This document shows, piece by piece, positions 3,455 to 37,581 of a DNA stretch of 39,122 nt. The DNA lies in the IMG/VR virus record IMGVR_UViG_3300026519_000026, positions 1 to 39,122 of that record, one strand, 5' to 3'. Both the position numbers and the translations under genes were made by a program. The stretch comes from a virus. Below the pieces are notes generated by a model that saw only the letters and a program-made list of their open reading frames with translations, had not been told where the DNA came from and did no database searches. Position 1 is the first letter of the stretch. Each line of letters opens with the position of its first letter.

Positions 3455-5215
3455 TCAGTCTCCGTAAGGGTTCAGGACATCGAAGTCCGTTTGCAGGCCG
3501 CCCGCCGTGCCCGGCAGCCCTCCGATATTGCCCGGGGACACGCCGGGTAGGCTCTCGGGCGACATGCCGTCGCCGTGGCTCTTGCTCAACAGCAGGTATT
3601 GCAGGGCATCCAGCACGTTCGCCTCGGCGATCCGCTTGTTGGGCACCTTGCGTTTTTCGCCGCTGGCATCGATCTCGTCGGCCCAGATATAGCGCGCCTC
3701 GAAACCGCTGATCAGCGGTTCGTTTGACGGGTGATCCTCGATCAGCAACCCGGGCTCGCCGCCGCGAATGGTCTCCAGCGCCGCGCGCACCGCCTCCAGG
3801 CGCGGCTGGATGCGGTTGGTGCCGATACGCTGCGGCCAGATCGAAAACCCCGCGGTCTGCCCTACCAGCCTGTTCCAGGTCTCGTTCTCATCGCTCGCCA
3901 GCGACGATCCATGCTCACCGGCCATGTCGCCCCAGCCGCCCTCGATGGACTTGCCGGGAAACTCGTCATCCAGAAACTCGCGCAATCGTCGCCCGAATTC
4001 CTTGGCCATAAGGCGCTCACCCGGAAAAAACAGAGTGCGATATATGCGCCAGCGCCACGGGTGCACGAACTGACCGATCACTGCCGCGCCCATGAACCCC
4101 TGGTCCAGCCCGATCACCAGCGGCAGCTCGGCAATCACTTCCAGCGGGTCGGCACTGACATGGATCGACCGGTTGAACTCGCGCCGGAACACCGGATCGC
4201 CGATGCGCAGCCAGGTGATCTTGTTGTAGACCAGCCGATCGACCAGGTCGCCCTTGCCCTGCACCTGGAGCGCGGCAATCTGCGTCTGGTAGTAGCTCGA
4301 TGGCAGGTTCTGCAGGTTCTCGCAGCCATCCTCGCCAAAGCCCGGCTGCCGGTGAAACGCGATGCGCACGGGGGTGGCGCCGTCCGGCAGCCCGCTGTTG
4401 ATGCCGTCCAGTATCTTGCGACTGCGCACCGGGTCGTGAAACAGCTGGTAGCAGTAATTGTCCTTGTCCATCGCGTTCATGTCGCCGACGATCTGGCCAT
4501 AATCGCGCAGCTGGTCCGGGTAGCCGCGAAAATGCGACTGATCCGGGTGGCGCTTGATCCGGGTGATGCCGTTGGCCAGCACGTCGGCCGGATTGGTATC
4601 CATTTCGTGCAGCCAGATGTCGGTGGTCTGGTAGCCGCGCATCGAGCCCACGATATCGTCGCCGAACGCCATCATTTCCGCGATGAATTCGATCGGCCCA
4701 AGCTCGTCCTCGAAGGTCATCCGGAACGTGACCGGCCCGCCGCGGCCGCCGGACCACTCGCCCAGGTCCTTGGGGAAGACCTTCAGAAAATCAGGGATCG
4801 TCGTCGACCACAGCTGGCGGTAGGTCGCCCGGATGATCAGCAGCTTGTAATAACGCCAGCCGTCCCGCACGCTGCGCGGCATCATCTTGGCGCGCCTCAG
4901 CCGCGATTTGAGCAGGGTTGTCGTCTTTCCGGACCCAACGGGACCCTGAATGCCGACAATGGCGCTGTCATCCCAGAAAAACGCCTCGGCAATCGGTCCG
5001 GGAAAGCCTGCGTCCTCCAATCCGTCGATATCCGGCTTGACTTCGGCAAAATCACCCTGCAGGCTCTGAATTCCGTCACTGGCGCTCAGCGCGCGATAGT
5101 CATCTTCCGACATCGTCGCCGGATCAGGGGCTGATCTCCCCACACCCCCATCGGCCGCAGCCCAGGCTACCCCCACACCCCAATTCCGGCATCCGAATTT
5201 CGCGCCTGTCAGCAT
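3455..5215 (-). CDS. terL: Terminase large subunit (ATPase-nuclease)
   Basis: The DNA-packaging motor, which translocates DNA into the prohead through the portal and cuts the concatemer. With the ATG at 5215 the protein has 586 aa. Walker A is GPVGSGKTT at about residues 91-99. A Walker B-like segment DIWLHEMD follows, and the C-terminal RNase-H-type nuclease part begins near VIGLDQGFMGAAVIG with a first acidic residue. I chose 5215 because it has the only good Shine-Dalgarno (AAGGA, 7-nt spacing). The alternative ATG at 5113 (552 aa, beginning MSEDDYRALS) starts closer to where recognisable sequence begins but lacks an RBS. The 34 residues between the two look poorly conserved. It follows the TerS candidate and a small ORF. 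Confidence 0.93.
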   Translation of the reverse strand: MLTGAKFGCRNWGVGVAWAAADGGVGRSAPDPATMSEDDYRALSASDGIQSLQGDFAEVKPDIDGLEDAGFPGPIAEAFFWDDSAIVGIQGPVGSGKTTTLLKSRLRRAKMMPRSVRDGWRYYKLLIIRATYRQLWSTTIPDFLKVFPKDLGEWSGGRGGPVTFRMTFEDELGPIEFIAEMMAFGDDIVGSMRGYQTTDIWLHEMDTNPADVLANGITRIKRHPDQSHFRGYPDQLRDYGQIVGDMNAMDKDNYCYQLFHDPVRSRKILDGINSGLPDGATPVRIAFHRQPGFGEDGCENLQNLPSSYYQTQIAALQVQGKGDLVDRLVYNKITWLRIGDPVFRREFNRSIHVSADPLEVIAELPLVIGLDQGFMGAAVIGQFVHPWRWRIYRTLFFPGERLMAKEFGRRLREFLDDEFPGKSIEGGWGDMAGEHGSSLASDENETWNRLVGQTAGFSIWPQRIGTNRIQPRLEAVRAALETIRGGEPGLLIEDHPSNEPLISGFEARYIWADEIDASGEKRKVPNKRIAEANVLDALQYLLLSKSHGDGMSPESLPGVSPGNIGGLPGTAGGLQTDFDVLNPYGD

Positions 5216-5427
5216 CCGGTGATCCTTCCCAAAATATGAGATGGCCTCACAGCCAGGGGAATATTCTTTTCGGCGCGACCCACCCCCCCCTTGATGGCGG
5301 GCGCGCGATCCTGTCGGCCGATCGCGCGCTGCAGCTGGTCGGCAGCGCCGCCAGGGCGCAATGCCCACTGATTTTCAATCAGTTGGTCGGTGGAAATTTT
5401 CAATTGATATTTCAATAGCTTAATCAT
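5209..5427 (-). CDS. Possible small ORF between TerS and TerL (72 aa)
   Basis: A 72-codon frame starts at ATG 5427, overlapping the stop of the TerS candidate by ATGA, and ends inside the TerL start region, so it tiles the gap exactly. It begins MIKLLKYQLKISTDQLIENQ and becomes Gly/Arg-rich. No family is recognised. A run of ten C bases (on the plus strand, near 5282-5291) lies inside it, so an indel error could change its frame and relation to TerL. The gapless ATGA fit supports a gene; the ordinary composition of its second half argues against one. Confidence 0.4.
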   Translation of the reverse strand: MIKLLKYQLKISTDQLIENQWALRPGGAADQLQRAIGRQDRAPAIKGGVGRAEKNIPLAVRPSHILGRITGC

Positions 5428-6086
5428 TCCGTCCGACTTTCGGTATCCGACCCGACAGATTTCGATCCGCTAACCTGTTGTTTTTGTTGTATTTCGTCTG
5501 GAAGCGGTGGCGGAACCATCCGACGCGCTGATCCAGGCGTAATGTCGCGCGCCGTTTCGCCTGGACGTGGCCCCGGCGCGGCCGCGCCAGGCATGACGAT
5601 CGTGGTCGCCTGCTGGACGTTCACATCGCCGCTAACCTTCGCCAAGCCGTAAGGCAACAACGCATCGGCTGCGCGCAGTCGCACAGCCAACACCTGCTGC
5701 AGCGTTGCCAGGCGCTGAGCCATGGTTGGCTTGGCCTCGCGCTCACCGCCGCCAGGCGCGCGCTCCTTGGCCGCGCCATCCTGCGCCCACAGCAAGATTT
5801 CCTCGGTCTCGCGCATCGCGCCGGCCAGCACGCTTTCGCCGCTGTTCAGCCCGGCCAGCTCGGCCATGACTTGCTCAGGTAGCCGGTAACCCCTCGCCGC
5901 CAGGAATTCACGCATCTGGCTCAGCGCCTTGCCCTTGCCGCGCTTTGGCGCATTTGGATCCCGCGGCCCGGACTTGGCAGGCGCTTCATCCGCCAGAAAG
6001 GTCAGCTGCTCACCAGCATCATGCGCCCGCTGCACCCGTGCTGCAGCATCAGCGGCCAATTTCGCATATTTGGTCGGGCGAACCAT
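5424..6086 (-). CDS. Terminase small subunit candidate (220 aa)
   Basis: Located immediately upstream of TerL in transcription order, the usual place for the DNA-recognition subunit of the packaging enzyme. The ATG at 6086 has an AAGGG Shine-Dalgarno at 9-nt spacing; a TTG one codon earlier is less likely. The N-terminus (MVRPTKYAKLAADAAARVQ) is basic and helical as in many HTH-type small terminases. A middle helical region is followed by a Pro/Gly-rich tail (MPGAAAPGPRPGETARD). Sequence similarity alone does not prove TerS; the call rests on position, size and architecture. The origin-like element starts 41 bp upstream of its start codon, so that element could also serve as a packaging (pac) site. 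Confidence 0.65.
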   Translation of the reverse strand: MVRPTKYAKLAADAAARVQRAHDAGEQLTFLADEAPAKSGPRDPNAPKRGKGKALSQMREFLAARGYRLPEQVMAELAGLNSGESVLAGAMRETEEILLWAQDGAAKERAPGGGEREAKPTMAQRLATLQQVLAVRLRAADALLPYGLAKVSGDVNVQQATTIVMPGAAAPGPRPGETARDITPGSARRMVPPPLPDEIQQKQQVSGSKSVGSDTESRTE

Positions 6087-6126
6087 CAAAAAACACCCTT
6101 TTGGAGCGTTTTCAATGGCTTAGCCA

Positions 6127-6424
6127 AAAGTGCAACATTTTCTGCAACATGCCATTTTTTTGTTGCACCAAATGTTGCAGCGATTTGCCAATGATACCAA
6201 CAAGTTAGATAACTACTGCAACAATGCAACAAGATATGTATGAGGTTACGCGCGCAGCCGCGCGCGCCTGCGCATGCGCGTATAGCGCGCGCGCGCGCGA
6301 ATACGCGCGCGAGACGGATTTTGTTGCATTGTTGCAGGAGGTGTTTAAGTGATTGTTTTTGCTCGGAAATCGCTGCAACATTTGGTGCAACATCTAGTGC
6401 AACACTTTTAAAATGTTGCACCCT
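6127..6424. other. Nested dyad of 12 TGCAACA elements: origin or partition/pac-like site
   Basis: TGCAACA occurs at 6131, 6143, 6217, 6225, 6374, 6386 and 6398. Its complement TGTTGCA occurs at 6161, 6173, 6322, 6330 and 6414. Spacings are regular: 12 bp in the outer clusters and 8 bp in the inner ones. The elements form three nested perfect inverted repeats with nearly one centre: 6130-6141 with 6410-6421 (12 bp), 6161-6186 with 6367-6392 (26 bp), and 6216-6232 with 6321-6337 (17 bp); centres are 6275.5-6276.5. The centre (about 6248-6312) is an alternating C/G stretch with Z-DNA and cruciform potential. No gene fits here. Position between the helicase and the terminase, plus an adjacent DnaA box, favours a replication origin; pac or partition are alternatives. 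Confidence 0.8.
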
Positions 6425-6433
6425 GACCCGAGT

Positions 6434-6442
6434 TGTGGATAA
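6434..6442 (-). promoter_or_regulatory. Perfect DnaA box (TTATCCACA)
   Basis: The minus strand reads TTATCCACA, the high-affinity bacterial DnaA-box consensus, 10 bp outside the TGCAACA dyad and about 115 bp beyond the end of the helicase gene. Another identical 9-mer occurs at 16917-16925, but inside the holin gene and without iterons, so that one is likely chance. The phage encodes its own DnaA domain IV (15930-16313), which makes this site functionally interesting. About 110 bp from here to the helicase stop (6558) hold no gene, only a G/T-rich stretch. Confidence 0.6.
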
Positions 6443-6557: not shown

Positions 6558-8447
6558 CTACGCGAAGTCGTTGAAATCATGGGACGTATCAGGCAGATTG
6601 GCCGCAGTCGGCCGCGCCGCCTCCGGCACGCCTTGTTCGTCCAAAAATGCCGGCGCGGCCCGCAGCGTAAACTGCCGGGCCCTCGATCCCACCAGGTCAA
6701 ATCTCAGGCTGCCTGTGGAAAAGCTGCCGGGAATGCGCTTGATCGCCTGCGCCCAAACACCACGCTGGCCGGCATTTGCATGCCACTGCGTACCCTCAAA
6801 GAGACGCGCCAAGCCCGGATGAGCGTTTGCGATAGCCAGCTGCGCCGCGTCGCCGCGTCCATAAACTCGCAAACCTACAGACGCCAGAGCGCGCTGCGCG
6901 GCCTTGGGGTCTGCATCCTCGACCATTTCGGCCGCGCGCAGCACGTATTGGCCAACCGTCAACCGATCACCGCCCCTGTAAATATCCAACTGCTGGCCAA
7001 ACAGATGGTTCAGACACCGCTGCCAGTCGCTGGCCTTGTCTGTTTGCTCATCGATCACCGCAGCGCTCAGCTTTTCAGCCCAAGCCTTGCAGCGATCGGG
7101 GCTGGGGGTTGCGTCGTAAAGCGCTAAATCGGCGAGGGCCAGTAATGTGCCGAACTGATCCGCGCCGCGCTGCGGGTGCCCTTCAAACACCAGAGCCTGA
7201 CGATACAGCTCCAACGTGTCGTGCAGACGACCCCATCCCTCAATCACCCGTGTTCGGATACCACGCCCTACCCGCAGCCAATGGCGCGGTTCGATCTTTG
7301 GTGGCGGGGTATCGCGCGGTAGCGGCATAAGCTCCAGAAGGGCGATCCGGCTTATATCCTGGTCAAGCAGAGCCGGCACCAGGATTGATGAGAACAGGAA
7401 CGATGATCTGGCCTTGAACTCTTGACCCTTGTGATCAGCACCCCCGCGCAGGATTACGCCGCCGGATGCTGCCTGGCGCGCCAGCTTGATCACCGATTGC
7501 ACCTTGCGGCCGTCCGCCTCAGCCTCGATCTCATCCAGCGCGACCGGCACGGTTGATTGCATAAGAAATTGCCTGACGCTGGCCTCAGTCGCGTCGGTAG
7601 ATTGCAGGATCGCCCCCTCGCCGCCCATTACGTGGCGGATCAGCTTGTGCAGCGTGGATTTGCCAGTACCCATGTCACCCGTGATCCAGATCAACGGTCG
7701 CCAGTCCAGAGATCCGCCGAAGATCGCGCCGCATATCCAACCCAGCAAAAGATAGGCATCCACATCCTCACGCAACCAGTTCCAAGTGCCCAAAAGGTCC
7801 AGCAACTGTTGGGCCGGGCTGTGGTCAGCCTCACCCTCTAGCGCATCGAGCGGGCGCGGGATCACGACAGCAGACGGGTACACGTAGCCGTCGATCTCAC
7901 CCGGAACCTTCCAAACGCCCTTGTGCAGGACCGCATCGCCGCAATGCAGGATGACGCCGCCCTCATCATCAGGCCAGGCGCCAAGGCCTCGCACCTTTTC
8001 AAAGGCGTTCCACACACCCTTCTCAGTACACGCCCGGTGCATGCAGGACCGCGCTGTCTCTTGAGACCAACCAGATGCCTTGCCGCTCCTGTTGAATTGG
8101 GGAAACCAGTCCTGCAACAGATCGGTCCGCCCACCGAAGATCGCGCTGATCGTATCCTTTTCATGCTTGCGGATCGCGCGCAGCTGACCCAGCCAGTCGA
8201 GGTAGAAAAACGTGTCGCCGTGCACCCCGAGGGCCCTTACCGGACAGTTCGGCCATATCTCGCCCCGATCACGCCTGGCCAGGTCCTCCGCCAGCTTTGG
8301 GCCAGTAGATATTCGTGTTCCTAGTTCAGCCGGTTGCGGATCAGGAGCGGCGACAGGGTCAGGGTTGTCCAGCTCAGCGTTCAGCAATTTCAAGCTGGGC
8401 TTGGGTTGGCCTGGTGTTTTTTCCGGACTGCCGGAACCATCTGTCAT
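6558..8447 (-). CDS. Replicative ATPase/helicase (P-loop, 629 aa)
   Basis: A large P-loop protein in the replication operon. Walker A is GDMGTGKST at about residues 257-265, Walker B VPVALDEIE at about 300-308, and an SSFLFSS sensor-like segment near 348. This resembles primase-associated helicases of phages and plasmids (DUF927/D5-type plan), with an N-terminal region that may contact DNA. It probably unwinds the origin or fork for host polymerase III, since no phage polymerase is present. It ends in TAG, which shows that amber is a real stop codon in this genome. Its start overlaps the stop of the 117-aa gene (ATGA). It lies directly next to the origin-like dyad. The exact helicase superfamily is not settled from sequence reading. 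Confidence 0.85.
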   Translation of the reverse strand: MTDGSGSPEKTPGQPKPSLKLLNAELDNPDPVAAPDPQPAELGTRISTGPKLAEDLARRDRGEIWPNCPVRALGVHGDTFFYLDWLGQLRAIRKHEKDTISAIFGGRTDLLQDWFPQFNRSGKASGWSQETARSCMHRACTEKGVWNAFEKVRGLGAWPDDEGGVILHCGDAVLHKGVWKVPGEIDGYVYPSAVVIPRPLDALEGEADHSPAQQLLDLLGTWNWLREDVDAYLLLGWICGAIFGGSLDWRPLIWITGDMGTGKSTLHKLIRHVMGGEGAILQSTDATEASVRQFLMQSTVPVALDEIEAEADGRKVQSVIKLARQAASGGVILRGGADHKGQEFKARSSFLFSSILVPALLDQDISRIALLELMPLPRDTPPPKIEPRHWLRVGRGIRTRVIEGWGRLHDTLELYRQALVFEGHPQRGADQFGTLLALADLALYDATPSPDRCKAWAEKLSAAVIDEQTDKASDWQRCLNHLFGQQLDIYRGGDRLTVGQYVLRAAEMVEDADPKAAQRALASVGLRVYGRGDAAQLAIANAHPGLARLFEGTQWHANAGQRGVWAQAIKRIPGSFSTGSLRFDLVGSRARQFTLRAAPAFLDEQGVPEAARPTAANLPDTSHDFNDFA

Positions 8448-8992: not shown

Positions 8993-9108
8993 GCCGGGCA
9001 CCCCGCCATGCAGGACCACGTCCATTCATGCAATACGCGGGCGTAGGTCATCCAGAACACCCATTGATCCGCTACCTGGGCGGCCAAGTACTGCAGAAAA
9101 TCGCTCAT
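8989..9108 (-). CDS. Micro-gene of 39 aa, coupled on both sides
   Basis: ATG 9108 overlaps the primase stop and the TGA at 8989 overlaps the start of the zinc-ribbon gene, both as ATGA. It encodes an aromatic-rich peptide (MSDFLQYLAAQVADQWVFWM, then TYARVLHEWTW and a Cys-containing end). The peptide is amphipathic to hydrophobic and could associate with a membrane or partner. The exact tiling between two genes is the main support. Confidence 0.55.
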   Translation of the reverse strand: MSDFLQYLAAQVADQWVFWMTYARVLHEWTWSCMAGCPA

Positions 9109-10235
9109 GCCGCCCCCTCTGCCTTCATCGCAGCCACCAGCGCGTCGTTGATGTCCTTCCCGCCAAAGCGATTTTTCCAGACGCTTACGCGCCGCCCCTG
9201 GGCTGCGAATACCTCGACCGCGCGGTCGATCTGGTCGGTCTGCTCGGGCTTGGGGTCGTTGTCCGCAACCAGCACCACCTGCGTGATGTTTGGCGGCAGC
9301 AGCATTTCGCGAATGTTGCCCAAGTCGATCGCCGCCGCCACACGGCGCGTCGGATCCAGCATCGCGACGCTCAGCGCGTCCTCGATGCCCTCGGTGATAT
9401 AGAGTTTCGACCCCTTGGGCGCGCGGCTCAGCGGACGGCCATGGCCGCCGCGCGCACCGACACCGGCCCAGACGCGAATGTAACCGCCCTTCTTGGACCC
9501 CCAAAGCAGCTTGGGTTTGGTCACCGGCGCTTTGTCCCACGCACCGGAGGCCTGGCGCGCAAGATAGGTCTTGTGAATGCCGATAAAACGCGGGCGCTCG
9601 CCCTCAACCCAGCCGGAATAGATCGCGGCAACCATCGCCGGATACTCGCCCTCGATGACCTCACCGGTCTTCTTGTCGACCGCGTAATATTGCAGCTTTG
9701 GATGATAACGCAGGGTGTGGGGCATTCGCCCAAGCCGGTCGAACCGGATCGCGCGTGCGTTCAGATATCCCTCAACCGGCGTGCCATAAAGACGCTCATG
9801 GCTTTCCAGAAAAATGGCATGGGCGGCACGCTCGCGCTTGCGTCGGCGCCGGGCGTCTCGTTCGGCCTCGACTTTCTGGCGGGCTAGCGCCTTTTCCGCC
9901 TGCGCCAAGCGCAGCCGGCGCTGTTCGGGCGTCTCGCTGTGCATGCCAAGGAACCGCTTGGCCTCTTGCACCGCTTCACCCTTGGAGCAGCCCAGCGCAC
10001 GCTGGATCAGGTCCAGCCCGTCCCCCATGTCTCCGGTCACCTCATCGCGCCAGCGGCCTGCCCATTGCCCGGCCAAGCCCATGTAGAAGCTGCCGATGCG
10101 CCCATCCTGGCGCCCGGGGTCCAGCGCCCAGTATCGCCCGCCGCGCACGTAACCGCCCGGCGCAAACCGGCGCGCCACGTCCTCGGGGCGGGCCTGCAGC
10201 GCCTGGATGATTTCATTAAGTGTCGGGTAGGTCAT
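9105..10235 (-). CDS. TOPRIM-domain DNA primase
   Basis: Synthesises RNA primers for DNA replication. The 376-aa protein has an N-terminal region with GGRYWALDPGR and a DMGDGLDLIQ motif like primases that lack a complete zinc finger. A basic, Arg-rich coiled segment follows (about 108-140), then a C-terminal TOPRIM domain with the acidic motif TEGIEDALS (about residues 280-288), VLVADND (about 321-327) and a closing GGKDINDAL. I use ATG 10235; a GTG two codons upstream is possible, and neither has a clear RBS. It heads the coupled set primase, 39-aa gene, zinc ribbon, 117-aa gene, helicase. About 105 bp upstream without a gene separate it from Tad2, enough for an internal promoter that I could not define. 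Confidence 0.9.
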   Translation of the reverse strand: MTYPTLNEIIQALQARPEDVARRFAPGGYVRGGRYWALDPGRQDGRIGSFYMGLAGQWAGRWRDEVTGDMGDGLDLIQRALGCSKGEAVQEAKRFLGMHSETPEQRRLRLAQAEKALARQKVEAERDARRRRKRERAAHAIFLESHERLYGTPVEGYLNARAIRFDRLGRMPHTLRYHPKLQYYAVDKKTGEVIEGEYPAMVAAIYSGWVEGERPRFIGIHKTYLARQASGAWDKAPVTKPKLLWGSKKGGYIRVWAGVGARGGHGRPLSRAPKGSKLYITEGIEDALSVAMLDPTRRVAAAIDLGNIREMLLPPNITQVVLVADNDPKPEQTDQIDRAVEVFAAQGRRVSVWKNRFGGKDINDALVAAMKAEGAA

Positions 10236-10342
10236 GATCACTAAAGCTTAGGTTATGTGGTTTCGTCTGGCGCCTGAACCGGCCGATTAGCTGGCAGCTT
10301 CCTCGTTACCCCTGGAACCTTCCGCGCCCAGGACCAGGTCGC

Positions 10343-10573
10343 TTAGGTATCAGCCAGGATAAGCTCCCAATCATGCGCCAGAATGTCAGTCTGGCTCGCC
10401 AGCCAAGGCACAAGGTCACCCTGGGCTGTGCGCATGTAGATATATGGCAGCGTCATCTTCGATTTCTCATTTGGCAACTGCAGCGCCAGCCACATGTCAT
10501 TGCCATTCCAACCACGGCGCGCAATTCGGGCGCCTGCCTTCAATTCGTTCAGGGCTTCAGAAAATTCCATCAT
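10343..10573 (-). CDS. tad2: Anti-Thoeris protein Tad2 (DUF2829 family)
   Basis: A 76-aa protein with the full DUF2829 signature: an N-terminal EFSEALNELKAGARIARRGWNG, then PYIYMRTAQGDLVPWLASQTD, then ILAHDWELI. Characterised members (Tad2) form tetramers that sequester the cyclic-ADP-ribose-type signal made by Thoeris TIR proteins and so block this abortive defence. The length matches the family, and the conserved Trp-Asn-Gly and Pro-Trp-Leu-Ala-Ser motifs are intact. ATG 10573 overlaps the stop of the Myb-like gene (ATGA, with ATG doubled), so it is expressed early with the control genes, as expected for an anti-defence factor. Ligand preference cannot be read from sequence. Confidence 0.85.
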   Translation of the reverse strand: MMEFSEALNELKAGARIARRGWNGNDMWLALQLPNEKSKMTLPYIYMRTAQGDLVPWLASQTDILAHDWELILADT

Positions 10574-11655
10574 GCCGATTTCTCCTCTTTCCCTGCCCGG
10601 GCGCGCAGCACGCCGAGCAGCTTTTCCTGCTTGTCTATTGTCGGGTCCGGACACAGGTCTTGAAATCGCTTCACGACCTGGTCCCTTGTCATTTCCAGAA
10701 TTATGGCCACGTCCTGCGCCTTGGTGCCGCCCAGTAGCAACTCGACCATTTCCAGATCCAGATCGGGATCCCAGCCTGCTGCATATCCGAGCTTGTCCAG
10801 CCGCCGCTCGATCATTCGCCTGGCCAACAGCCCGCCCGCCGGCTGAACGGTTTCCACCTGCCGGTCCGACATGGGCGCATCTGTGGCTGCCAACACTGGC
10901 GCGCCCTGTCGTCCAGAAGCTGCGGCTTCTGGGGCCTTGGGAGTTGCAGGGGAAACCCCGGCAGGTGGAACTTGGGGGCCGGGCTCTGCCGGGCGCGCCT
11001 CTGCGCCGCCAGCATCCTCCTCGGCCACTTCCTTGCGCAAGCTGCGCAGCTTGAACGACGTCGCTTGATACGAGCGCCCCACGGCCCTGGAAATTTCCTT
11101 GGGACCGGCGCCCTCACGCAACAGGCGCTTGGCGGTCGCAATCTCTTTGTCGCTCCAACGTGGTGCTTTCTTGCGCCGGTCGGTGGACGCCGACGCTTCG
11201 ATACTATGCAGCTTTGATTTCACGCCTTCCACCGGCCGCCCCAGTACCTCGGCTATGTGACGAGCCGTCTGCCCACGCGATCGCATGCGCCGCGCCCGGG
11301 CTACCTCGTCCCTGGTCCAGCGCCTTAGCTGTTGTGGCGGTTTTTTGGCATCAGTCGACACGGCAGACCTGGACGGTTGCTCAGCTGAAGGCGATGGACC
11401 TTCTGCCACAAGCCCAACAGCCGCGCTGGACCCCGCCAGGATCACGCCGGTCTGCACTGAAAATGCCACAACCACCCGCGCCGACGGGCTGTCAACGCCG
11501 CTGATATCGACAAACGGCGCCAGGCCCAGCCCTTCCAGCGAATTCACCAGAACCTCGATCAATCCGAGCGCGCTGTCGGCCGCTTTCTGTGCCTCTCGCG
11601 CTTGGCTCAGGCGGGCTTTCAGATACCCTAGACCGTTATCACCGTCATCTGACAT
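10570..11655 (-). CDS. Protein with two Myb/SANT-like HTH repeats (361 aa)
   Basis: Two tandem DNA-binding-like modules of about 40 residues are visible. One contains RRWTRDEVARARRMRSRGQ and TARHIAEVLGRPVEGVKSKL; the other contains PRWSDKEIATAKRLLREGAG and PKEISRAVGRSYQATSFKL. Both have the Trp-led three-helix pattern of SANT/GcrA-like domains. The C-terminal part has a third helical segment (LLLGGTKAQDVAIILEMTRDQVVKRFQDL) that also reads like an HTH. Linkers are Pro/Ala-rich. ATG 11655 has AGGGA at 8-nt spacing; upstream Mets lack an RBS. It may be an early transcription regulator or an origin-binding factor. The arrangement of repeated HTH modules would suit binding to repeated DNA sites, but this is inference. 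Confidence 0.75.
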   Translation of the reverse strand: MSDDGDNGLGYLKARLSQAREAQKAADSALGLIEVLVNSLEGLGLAPFVDISGVDSPSARVVVAFSVQTGVILAGSSAAVGLVAEGPSPSAEQPSRSAVSTDAKKPPQQLRRWTRDEVARARRMRSRGQTARHIAEVLGRPVEGVKSKLHSIEASASTDRRKKAPRWSDKEIATAKRLLREGAGPKEISRAVGRSYQATSFKLRSLRKEVAEEDAGGAEARPAEPGPQVPPAGVSPATPKAPEAAASGRQGAPVLAATDAPMSDRQVETVQPAGGLLARRMIERRLDKLGYAAGWDPDLDLEMVELLLGGTKAQDVAIILEMTRDQVVKRFQDLCPDPTIDKQEKLLGVLRARAGKEEKSA

Positions 11656-12007
11656 CCATTGCATCCCTGTTTTGCCTGTCCAACCCGGCAAGCGCCTGAC
11701 TGGCTTCACCCAACCGCCAGAAAAAGAAATCAGCTAACTTTGTTGCGGCACGGAACCGAATGCTGTCCAACTCTTCACGACGGCTGTTAGGGCTCTCAAT
11801 GCTCTTGAGCCACTCCAGCCGGTCCGCCTGCTCCGCGATTGGTTCAATATAGGGATGGCCACGACTGACCCGGGGCAGCACCTCGCACACCTTGGAAACC
11901 GCCAGATCGACATGCCCGTTGTCAATGGCGCCGCAGCCAGCCACAACAGCCATGGCATTTACCAATACTTGGTCCGCAATGGTCAGTTTCGCCCACCCTT
12001 TACCCAT
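11645..12007 (-). CDS. Unknown 120-aa early protein
   Basis: It starts at ATG 12007 with GGAG at 7-nt spacing (MGKGWAKLTIADQVLVNAMA). Predicted mostly helical with two conserved-looking blocks (PYIEPIAEQADRLEWLKSIE and SIRFRAATKLADFFFWRLGE). No family is recognised. It overlaps the next gene by 11 bp and the preceding one by 8 bp, inside the early control operon. Confidence 0.65.
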   Translation of the reverse strand: MGKGWAKLTIADQVLVNAMAVVAGCGAIDNGHVDLAVSKVCEVLPRVSRGHPYIEPIAEQADRLEWLKSIESPNSRREELDSIRFRAATKLADFFFWRLGEASQALAGLDRQNRDAMDVR

Positions 12008-36338: not shown

Positions 36339-36578
36339 TCAGCCCGAACACATGCGTGTCAGCACGTCCGCATGGCCCTTCGCGCGCAGCCGGAACCCGC
36401 CGATCGCGGCCAGCAACGCCAGCGCCTGCTGGCCGCGGTCCGGCTCGCGCGCCAGCTTTTGCGCCAGCATGTTGTGCAACGCCGCCTCGCAGCCTTCGGC
36501 ATAATGCAGCGCCTCGGTGATTTCCTCGCCGATCTCGAAACCGGCCTGTTCCAGATCTTCACGCTCACGATCAGGCAT
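36339..36578 (-). CDS. Unknown 79-aa protein of the antirepressor cassette
   Basis: An acidic N-terminus (MPDREREDLEQAGFEIGEEI) followed by helices (EALHYAEGCEAALHNMLAQK). It overlaps the BRO gene by 8 bp and ends 17 bp before the terminator, so it belongs with the BRO gene, not the capsid module. No family is recognised. Confidence 0.65.
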   Translation of the reverse strand: MPDREREDLEQAGFEIGEEITEALHYAEGCEAALHNMLAQKLAREPDRGQQALALLAAIGGFRLRAKGHADVLTRMCSG

Positions 36579-37410
36579 CGGCCACCTCCCGCGCTTCGAC
36601 CAGCGCGCCGGGCACCACGACGCCGCGCGTCGCCTCGCCGCCGATCGACAGCACCTGGTTGCTGATCATCGCCCCGCCCAGCGCCAGCAGCGCCGCGCGC
36701 CAGCCGCCGCCGGCCCAGCGTGTGCCTGCAAACAGCGACGCCACCGCCGGATGCGCCGGGTTGGCCACGAACAGGCCGTCCTCGACCAGGCGCAGCCCCC
36801 AGCCGTTCAGCGCCCGCACGTCGCGCGCCGCGATCGCCGCGCCGGCCACGTCCAGAACATGGGCCAGGCATTCGCGCCCCTCGGCCGCGCTCGCCGGCGC
36901 ATTGTCGGGGCCGATCTGCGGCAGCGGGCTGCGCGTCCAGATCGACACCGCCGCCCGGCGCCCGCGCGTCAGCCGCGCCTCGCGCACCAGCTGCAGCCAG
37001 ATTTCCGCCTCGCGCAGCGGCAGCCCGGCGATCTCGCCGCCCGTGGCCGCGCCCGCCGGCAGCCGGTGTTCATAGCGCCCCTGCTTGCGGATCGCCGGCA
37101 GAACCTCGGCCGTGACCCACTTGCGGAACCGGCGCGCCTGTTCCTTGCGGCTGGTCAGCACCAGCGCGTAAAGACCGCTTTCGGAAATGATGGTGGCGTT
37201 CGGGTTCCCGCGAATAGTGTCGGTTTTACCGACGGTATTCAGGTTCACAACCTCACGCTCGTCATCATCGAGCCGGGAAACTGCATCTCGCGAGTTTCCA
37301 ATCTCCAAAACGCGGCAGACATCCGCCGCCACGAACCACGGCTCGTCCTCGCGCATCACCACGCGCACGGCCTGTTCCTCGAAATCGAATGGGAGTATTT
37401 CGGTGCTCAT
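36571..37410 (-). CDS. BRO-N domain antirepressor
   Basis: A 279-aa protein. Its first about 110 residues are a BRO-N (Bro/antirepressor) domain: ILPFDFEEQAVRVVMREDEP, WFVAADVCRVLEIGNSRDAV, ISESGLYALVLTSRKEQARR, FRKWVTAEVLPAIRKQGRYE. Such proteins bind DNA or repressors and can trigger prophage induction. The C-terminal half is variable and not assigned. It has a perfect AGGAGG 7 nt before ATG 37410. An operator-like CCACTAGG overlaps this RBS, which suggests autoregulation. It is an outsider between scaffold and capsid genes. Confidence 0.85.
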   Translation of the reverse strand: MSTEILPFDFEEQAVRVVMREDEPWFVAADVCRVLEIGNSRDAVSRLDDDEREVVNLNTVGKTDTIRGNPNATIISESGLYALVLTSRKEQARRFRKWVTAEVLPAIRKQGRYEHRLPAGAATGGEIAGLPLREAEIWLQLVREARLTRGRRAAVSIWTRSPLPQIGPDNAPASAAEGRECLAHVLDVAGAAIAARDVRALNGWGLRLVEDGLFVANPAHPAVASLFAGTRWAGGGWRAALLALGGAMISNQVLSIGGEATRGVVVPGALVEAREVADA

Positions 37411-37417
37411 CTGGCAT

Positions 37418-37581
37418 CCTCCTAGTGGTTGAATGATCCCACCCACCCCCTGTCAACAGGGTGGCCAGGCAACAGCGGGTTGACAGACCGCCACTAGGAA
37501 CGGCAGACCTTTCGGTCTCCCACTGCGCCTGACCATGGAAAAGGCCGCGTTACGGGCGGCCTCGGTTGCGCCTAGTGGTTG
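37418..37581 (-). promoter_or_regulatory. Control region of BRO cassette with CCTAGTGG operators
   Basis: CCTAGTGGTTG occurs at 37421-37431 and 37571-37581 and its inverse CCACTAGG at 37491-37498. TTGACA boxes on the minus strand lie at 37456-37451, 37595-37590 and 37657-37652, with only weak -10 candidates (about 3 of 6 or less). A hairpin CCACC..CAGGGTGG lies around 37443-37464. The 285-bp gap 37411-37694 contains no gene. Confidence 0.55.
37539..37562 (-). terminator. Rho-independent terminator after scaffold gene
   Basis: On the minus strand GGCCGC, loop of 7, GCGGCC (37561-37556 with 37548-37543, extended by one A-T pair) is followed by TTTTCC (37542-37537). It closes the packaging and scaffold transcript before the BRO control region. 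Confidence 0.65.

Follow-up and report, generated by a model that had tools for sequence, protein, structure and literature searches.

Gene content and architecture of the locus

The window analyzed here is the whole 39,122-base virus record IMGVR_UViG_3300026519_000026. The virus is a temperate podovirus with genes for a T7-type portal, terminase, capsid, tail, endolysin, repressor and integrase, and its portal, capsid, tail, terminase and endolysin genes set the element apart from PICIs, which are satellites without a full virion gene set. On the minus strand, the order of features is a Toprim primase, a Rep-like helicase, a large nested dyad, a TerS-like gene of family F4, the TerL gene (3455–5368) and the portal gene (Table 1). 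The helicase gene therefore flanks the dyad on one side, as stated in the original prediction made from the sequence, and the TerS-like gene flanks it on the other. A helix-turn-helix (HTH) protein is encoded at 10570–11709 in the replication module of the window. Some distant relatives encode the primase and the helicase as a single fused protein.

The dyad is built from the 7-bp word TGCAACA, of which twelve exact copies fall within 290 bp, six on each side of the center. The full 39 kb window contains 17 copies compared to 5.5 expected, a number that none of 100 shuffled sequences reached. The copies are embedded in three nested inverted repeats with maximal perfect arms of 12 bp (6130–6141/6410–6421, center 6275.5), 26 bp (6161–6186/6367–6392, center 6276.5) and 17 bp (6216–6232/6321–6337, center 6276.5). 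Spacing of the word is 12 bp on the outside, with two gaps of 16–18 bp, and 8 bp on the inside. In the central 41 bp, purine–pyrimidine alternation reaches 0.875. These exact recounts reproduce the copy number, the nested arms and the alternating C/G center given in the original prediction, and add the two longer gaps to its 12- and 8-bp spacings. The perfect DnaA box that it had placed beside the dyad is also present, as TTATCCACA at 6434–6442 on the minus strand.

Table 1. Positions of the nested dyad, its sites and the flanking replication and packaging genes in the window
Feature	Position	Strand	Basis
Complete nested dyad (proposed origin of replication), located ~137 bp 3' of the stop codon of the helicase gene	6130..6421		
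Site 1 (far left), TGCAACA	6131..6137	+	
Site 2, TGCAACA	6143..6149	+	
Site 3 (outer cluster, opposite strand)	6161..6167	-	
Site 4 (outer cluster, opposite strand)	6173..6179	-	
Site 5 (inner pair, 8 bp apart)	6217..6223	+	
Site 6 (inner pair)	6225..6231	+	
Center: largely alternating purine–pyrimidine tract, mostly CG; proposed melting/entry zone between the half-sets	6249..6309		
Site 7 (inner pair)	6322..6328	-	
Site 8 (inner pair)	6330..6336	-	
Site 9 (outer cluster)	6374..6380	+	
Site 10 (outer cluster)	6386..6392	+	
Site 11 (outer cluster)	6398..6404	+	
Site 12 (far right)	6414..6420	-	
TerS-like protein (F4 family), encoded by the first gene beyond the proposed origin	5424..6089	-	Weak fold likeness to phage G20c small terminase
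Rep-like AAA+ helicase, 629 aa; proposed word reader and self-loading initiator	6558..8447	-	AlphaFold model, fold matches
Toprim primase (DUF7146 + Toprim_3), same replication module	9105..10241	-	

Conservation of the array in related loci

Related loci were collected via homology of the adjacent helicase, which yielded 112 non-redundant loci that include prophages of Albimonas, Sphingomonas, Zavarzinia, Palleronia, Oricola, Nitratireductor, Jiella, Croceicoccus and Brevundimonas. Zavarzinia aquatilis, Sphingomonas sanguinis and Nitratireductor indicus are among the prophage hosts. The array detector is based on simple word enrichment and is applied with a cut-off score of ≥30. Arrays at this score are found in 86 of the 112 helicase-collected loci and in none of 6,540 control stretches taken from the same loci. 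The word itself varies. In the closest relative, whose helicase is 70% identical, there are no copies of TGCAACA, and 12 copies of GGTAAC are found at the corresponding position, spaced in a similar way by 12 and 8 bp. Other words include GTTCC, GTTAC, GTCCC, GTTGC, GTTTC, GTCTT, GTTCT, GTCGT and GTTAG, among others, and a GT[T/C]N core is common to nearly all of them. The search of related prophages proposed with the original prediction thus finds the symmetric layout kept, rather than lost, under a different word.

The distances of the sites from the center form two groups, at ~24–56 and ~84–132 bp, and the outer cluster lies mostly on the opposite strand. Sites were counted in 61 representatives with helicase identity below 70%. 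Halves with six sites are the most common class, accounting for 65 of the 122 halves when the laxest threshold is applied, and arrays most often have 12 sites in total, against a chance expectation of fewer than 0.5 sites per 340 bp. The array is located at most 600 bp 3' of the helicase in 45 of the 61 representatives and more than 600 bp away in the remaining 16. Relative to the dyad center, 41 loci have the GT[T/C]N word pointing outward and another 41 have it pointing inward; the layout is otherwise alike.

Over the 86 loci, the central 41 bp alternate between purine and pyrimidine at 0.77 of steps, compared to 0.52 in the flanks. The GC content of the center is 0.64 versus 0.66 in the flanks, which indicates that no AT-rich element lies between the half-sets; the AT-rich centers of phages phi1422 and Acjo_20 are exceptions. 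No array is seen in L021/L077, where the contig ends 448 bp past the helicase, and the array is weak or absent in Bordetella phage PBb002 and Synechococcus phage S-H1. Tandem arrays of hexamers on one strand also occur far from the helicase in L139 (1434–1656, CGTAGC), L065 (2543–2759, ACGGCT) and L125 (4648–4843, GCAGCA); these are likely coding repeats, separate from the dyads.

Linkage of the word to helicase and terminase

Because the array usually stands just before the TerS-like gene, the dyad was also considered as a cos or pac packaging site read by F4, in which the cut would fall in the GC-rich center with TerS sites on both sides. The array is mostly found 20–100 bp before F4, even when unrelated genes lie between the array and the helicase, and in L218 (1175–1948) and L223 (1331–2104) array and F4 are neighbors upstream of the helicase, separated from TerL. 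F4 itself weakly resembles a small terminase: its fold search returns weak matches alone, several of them to the G20c small terminase. The cosB of phage lambda likewise stands just before the TerS gene with short GTTTC-core repeats, and its R sites contain CGTTTCC. There are, however, three R sites, all on one side of cosN and with no mirrored six-plus-six arrangement. In the lambda cos sequence (L148, 1–190), CGTTTCC fits a GT[T/C]NC core, probably by chance. In PICIs as well, the origin may be followed by terS (PMC6092414).

The two readings would make the word follow different proteins. A pairwise comparison covered 115 loci, nearly all collected by helicase and forming pairs that are not independent; the word is common to 20 of 26 pairs in which the helicases are ≥55% and the F4 proteins <35% identical, and to 0 of 38 pairs in which F4 is ≥45% and the helicase <45% identical. 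The word thus survives exchange of F4 and differs where F4 is kept, and none of the 38 pairs has the recognition word tied to TerS as in a cos/pac site. Across all pairs, word similarity and protein identity are weakly correlated for every protein. Two pairs of close helicases have differing words, L051/L059 and L136/L138, which may represent recent respecifications. The L051 and L059 helicases are 73% identical, with identity falling to 24–36% near residues 105–130 and to 41–48% near residues 513–529. On the basis of this alignment, residues ~105–130 and ~513–529 are candidate specificity regions. Window-wise covariation for a reading domain gives weak, conflicting signals; its closer pairs point to the N-terminal third, and homology points to the C-terminal domain.

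The distribution of the array agrees with the pairwise comparison in disfavoring a packaging site. In terminase-collected contigs of 34 and 31 kb that carry F4 and TerL with no helicase, no array is present near the terminase genes, and an array-bearing contig that appeared to be helicase-free (L190) has its helicase further away. The helicase is present in all array-bearing contigs checked, most of which were collected by it. Conversely, arrays occur at the helicase in loci with no detectable F4/TerL of the window type, namely L084, which has a different terminase type, L109, L111, L140 and L141. Isolated phages with distant helicase homologues (25–31% identity) carry the array whatever their packaging genes. 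Bdellovibrio phage phi1422 has 11 copies of GGTAACA ~10 bp after its primase-helicase, at a distance of 7.5 kb from TerL; Acinetobacter phage Acjo_20 has 12 copies of GTTACA just upstream of the helicase homologue; Synechococcus phage MinM1 has 12 copies of CTCACA at the 3' end of the helicase homologue; and in Pseudomonas phage ZRG1, the helicase is 4.6 kb and TerS 3 kb away from the 12 copies of CGTTAG. Finally, the array is internal, and not at a contig end, in the window and in nearly all long contigs. Taken against the position of the array before F4, these observations make a packaging site, which the original prediction had listed as an alternative, improbable, and F4 is probably not the reader of the word.

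Locus L140 (5695–10614, from Micavibrio MAG UBA5572) combines the array and the helicase with an integrase and a 293-aa gene, and no structural gene of a phage is seen in the vicinity. It resembles a minimal satellite or an integrative element that employs this replicon.

Helicase fold and comparison with known systems

The AlphaFold model of the helicase has a pLDDT of 89. Its best structural match is SCCmec Cch (Z 16.4, 434 residues aligned), followed by the SaPI5 Rep primase-helicase (Z 15.6) and then by MCM helicases, and residues 474–540 form a helix-helix-helix-strand-strand unit. The matches to Cch and SaPI5 Rep place the protein among hexameric helicases of the SaPI-Rep/Cch type that act as initiators, and hexamers are predicted. 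At the sequence level, there is a weak match to the P4-family primase C-terminal region (E 0.002), and a PDB sequence search with the helicase profile returned nothing useful. The alpha protein of phage P4 is a primase-helicase that reads its own origin repeats, and the ori and crr of P4 are separate. Elsewhere in the window, residues 211–282 of an anti-repressor (36571–37446, minus strand) match positions 521–601 of the helicase-family profile phrog_21086 (E 2.9e-7), and the two proteins seem, from this match, to have a C-terminal module in common.

In PICI and SaPI elements, the origin is located directly 3' of a Rep-type helicase gene, and two sets of short repeats flank its center (PMC6092414, PMC7581432). 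The window and its family have the same arrangement, with the array 3' of the rep gene (~137 bp in the window) and two sets of short iterons around a center, and they resemble SaPIbov1, SaPI5 and EcCICFT073 further in their element-specific words and in a Rep-type helicase that, by its fold match to SaPI5 Rep, is predicted to be self-loading. The rep-ori of EcCICFT073, an island of E. coli, drives plasmid replication (PMC6092414). The same detector finds in it a mirrored nested array of 11 exact GGTAGA copies (12 including one near-match), at offsets −109, −100, −54 (reversed), −32, −21 and −12 on one side and +19, +30, +52 (reversed), +98 and +107 on the other. A search with the helicase profile gives no sequence match to the EcCICFT073 Rep. 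The PICI and SaPI elements are satellites with an AT-rich region between the repeat sets, whereas the window is a complete temperate phage with a GC-rich alternating center.

Two other systems are alike in part. SCCmec encodes Cch, the closest structural match, and its Cch2 binds short repeats 3' of its own gene and behaves like Rep; the putative Cch2 origin, however, has only three AAGTG repeats, the element is a cassette and not a phage, and its primase, CCPol-MP, is a different enzyme (PMC7581432). In the PLE of Vibrio cholerae, the initiator and the iteron words change together and are exchanged, as they are in the window family; in the PLE, the pressure to do so probably comes from Odn, a nuclease directed at the origin. 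The PLE origin, however, has three semi-palindromic iterons of ~30 bp and its initiator is a RepA_N protein, RepA, and not a helicase of this kind (PMC8263062). By eye, a smaller mirrored set of GATAGGG with an AT-rich center is also visible at the record start of Burkholderia phage BcepC6B (L143, 1–114), just before gp01/TerS; it may be an origin of this kind that uses a different initiator.

Interpretation of the dyad

The dyad is interpreted as the replication origin of the temperate podovirus, read by the phage's own Rep-like AAA+ helicase, with a probability of roughly 0.83. This reading is drawn from sequence comparison and analogy: the array is linked with the replicative helicase rather than with the terminase, and its layout matches that of a functional PICI origin. 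The origin function suggested in the original prediction gains support from the linkage of array and helicase across phages and from the likeness to the EcCICFT073 layout. The dyad is very probably a variant of the PICI/SaPI Rep-helicase origin found in complete temperate phages. As its center has no AT-rich element, the replicon is classed as a variant that would work like PICI origins and not as a member of that group.

The further claim that this is a new type of origin holds in part. An origin 3' of the helicase with two repeat sets is already published for PICI and SaPI (PMC6092414, PMC7581432), while the presence in complete temperate phages, the mirrored six-plus-six layout, the GC-rich alternating center and the fast turnover of the word seem to be new. 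A literature search, with most subscription papers outside its reach, found no description of such an origin in complete temperate phages. The strand skew that had been proposed as a check exhibits no clear switch; four-fold sites give small, partly significant differences between genes.

Less probable still than a packaging site is an operator or promoter region of the late operon, with the words as sites for a phage transcription regulator. The dyad does lie between the early replication genes and the late terminase genes, ahead of the first late gene, but an operator needs neither exact two-sided symmetry nor six-plus-six counts, the words follow the helicase, and the arrays of phi1422 and Acjo_20 lie elsewhere than at the beginning of the terminase or late genes. 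A classical DnaA-dependent or plasmid-type iteron origin, read by host DnaA or by another phage protein such as the HTH protein, is very unlikely. The DnaA box adjoins the array and the HTH protein is encoded in the same module as the helicase; against this, a box of the form TTWTNCACA is present near the array in only 1 of the 86 loci, the window itself, and is therefore most likely there by chance, so that the involvement of DnaA raised by the original prediction is not borne out. The dyad also has no AT-rich unwinding element, and the protein common to all array-bearing contigs checked, most of them collected by it, is the helicase. A protelomerase-type telomere, a reading prompted by the nested palindrome around a CG center, was set aside, as the palindrome is not perfect at the center and the scanned proteins gave no match to a protelomerase.

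In the proposed mechanism of the helicase-read origin, the helicase would recognize the 7-bp word, and the six sites on each side would gather one hexamer each, at one site per subunit and in mirror orientation. The flexible alternating purine–pyrimidine center would then open and take up both rings, which would depart in opposite directions while the neighboring Toprim primase primes synthesis. The array may further constitute a stoichiometric loading code, a tentative proposal that falls somewhat short of even odds. Under such a code, the six sites of each half would load one six-subunit ring and the two halves would load a head-to-head helicase pair with no separate loader, with the word freely recoded and the geometry fixed. 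Recoding of the word perhaps serves escape from rivals that target the origin or from incompatibility between co-infecting phages.

Implications

Earlier descriptions of this mirrored kind of layout come only from small parasitic DNA islands. The origin kind proposed here is now seen in ~100 temperate phages and prophages, the majority of them from Alphaproteobacteria, and also in isolated phages that infect Bdellovibrio, Acinetobacter, Synechococcus and Stutzerimonas. Satellites and phages would thereby be linked through their replicon, which is available in many natural variants that have one geometry and different words. With the six-plus-six count, the way in which a self-loading hexameric helicase assembles on duplex DNA becomes open to direct testing. 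Swaps of the word provide matched helicase–word pairs for studies of specificity.
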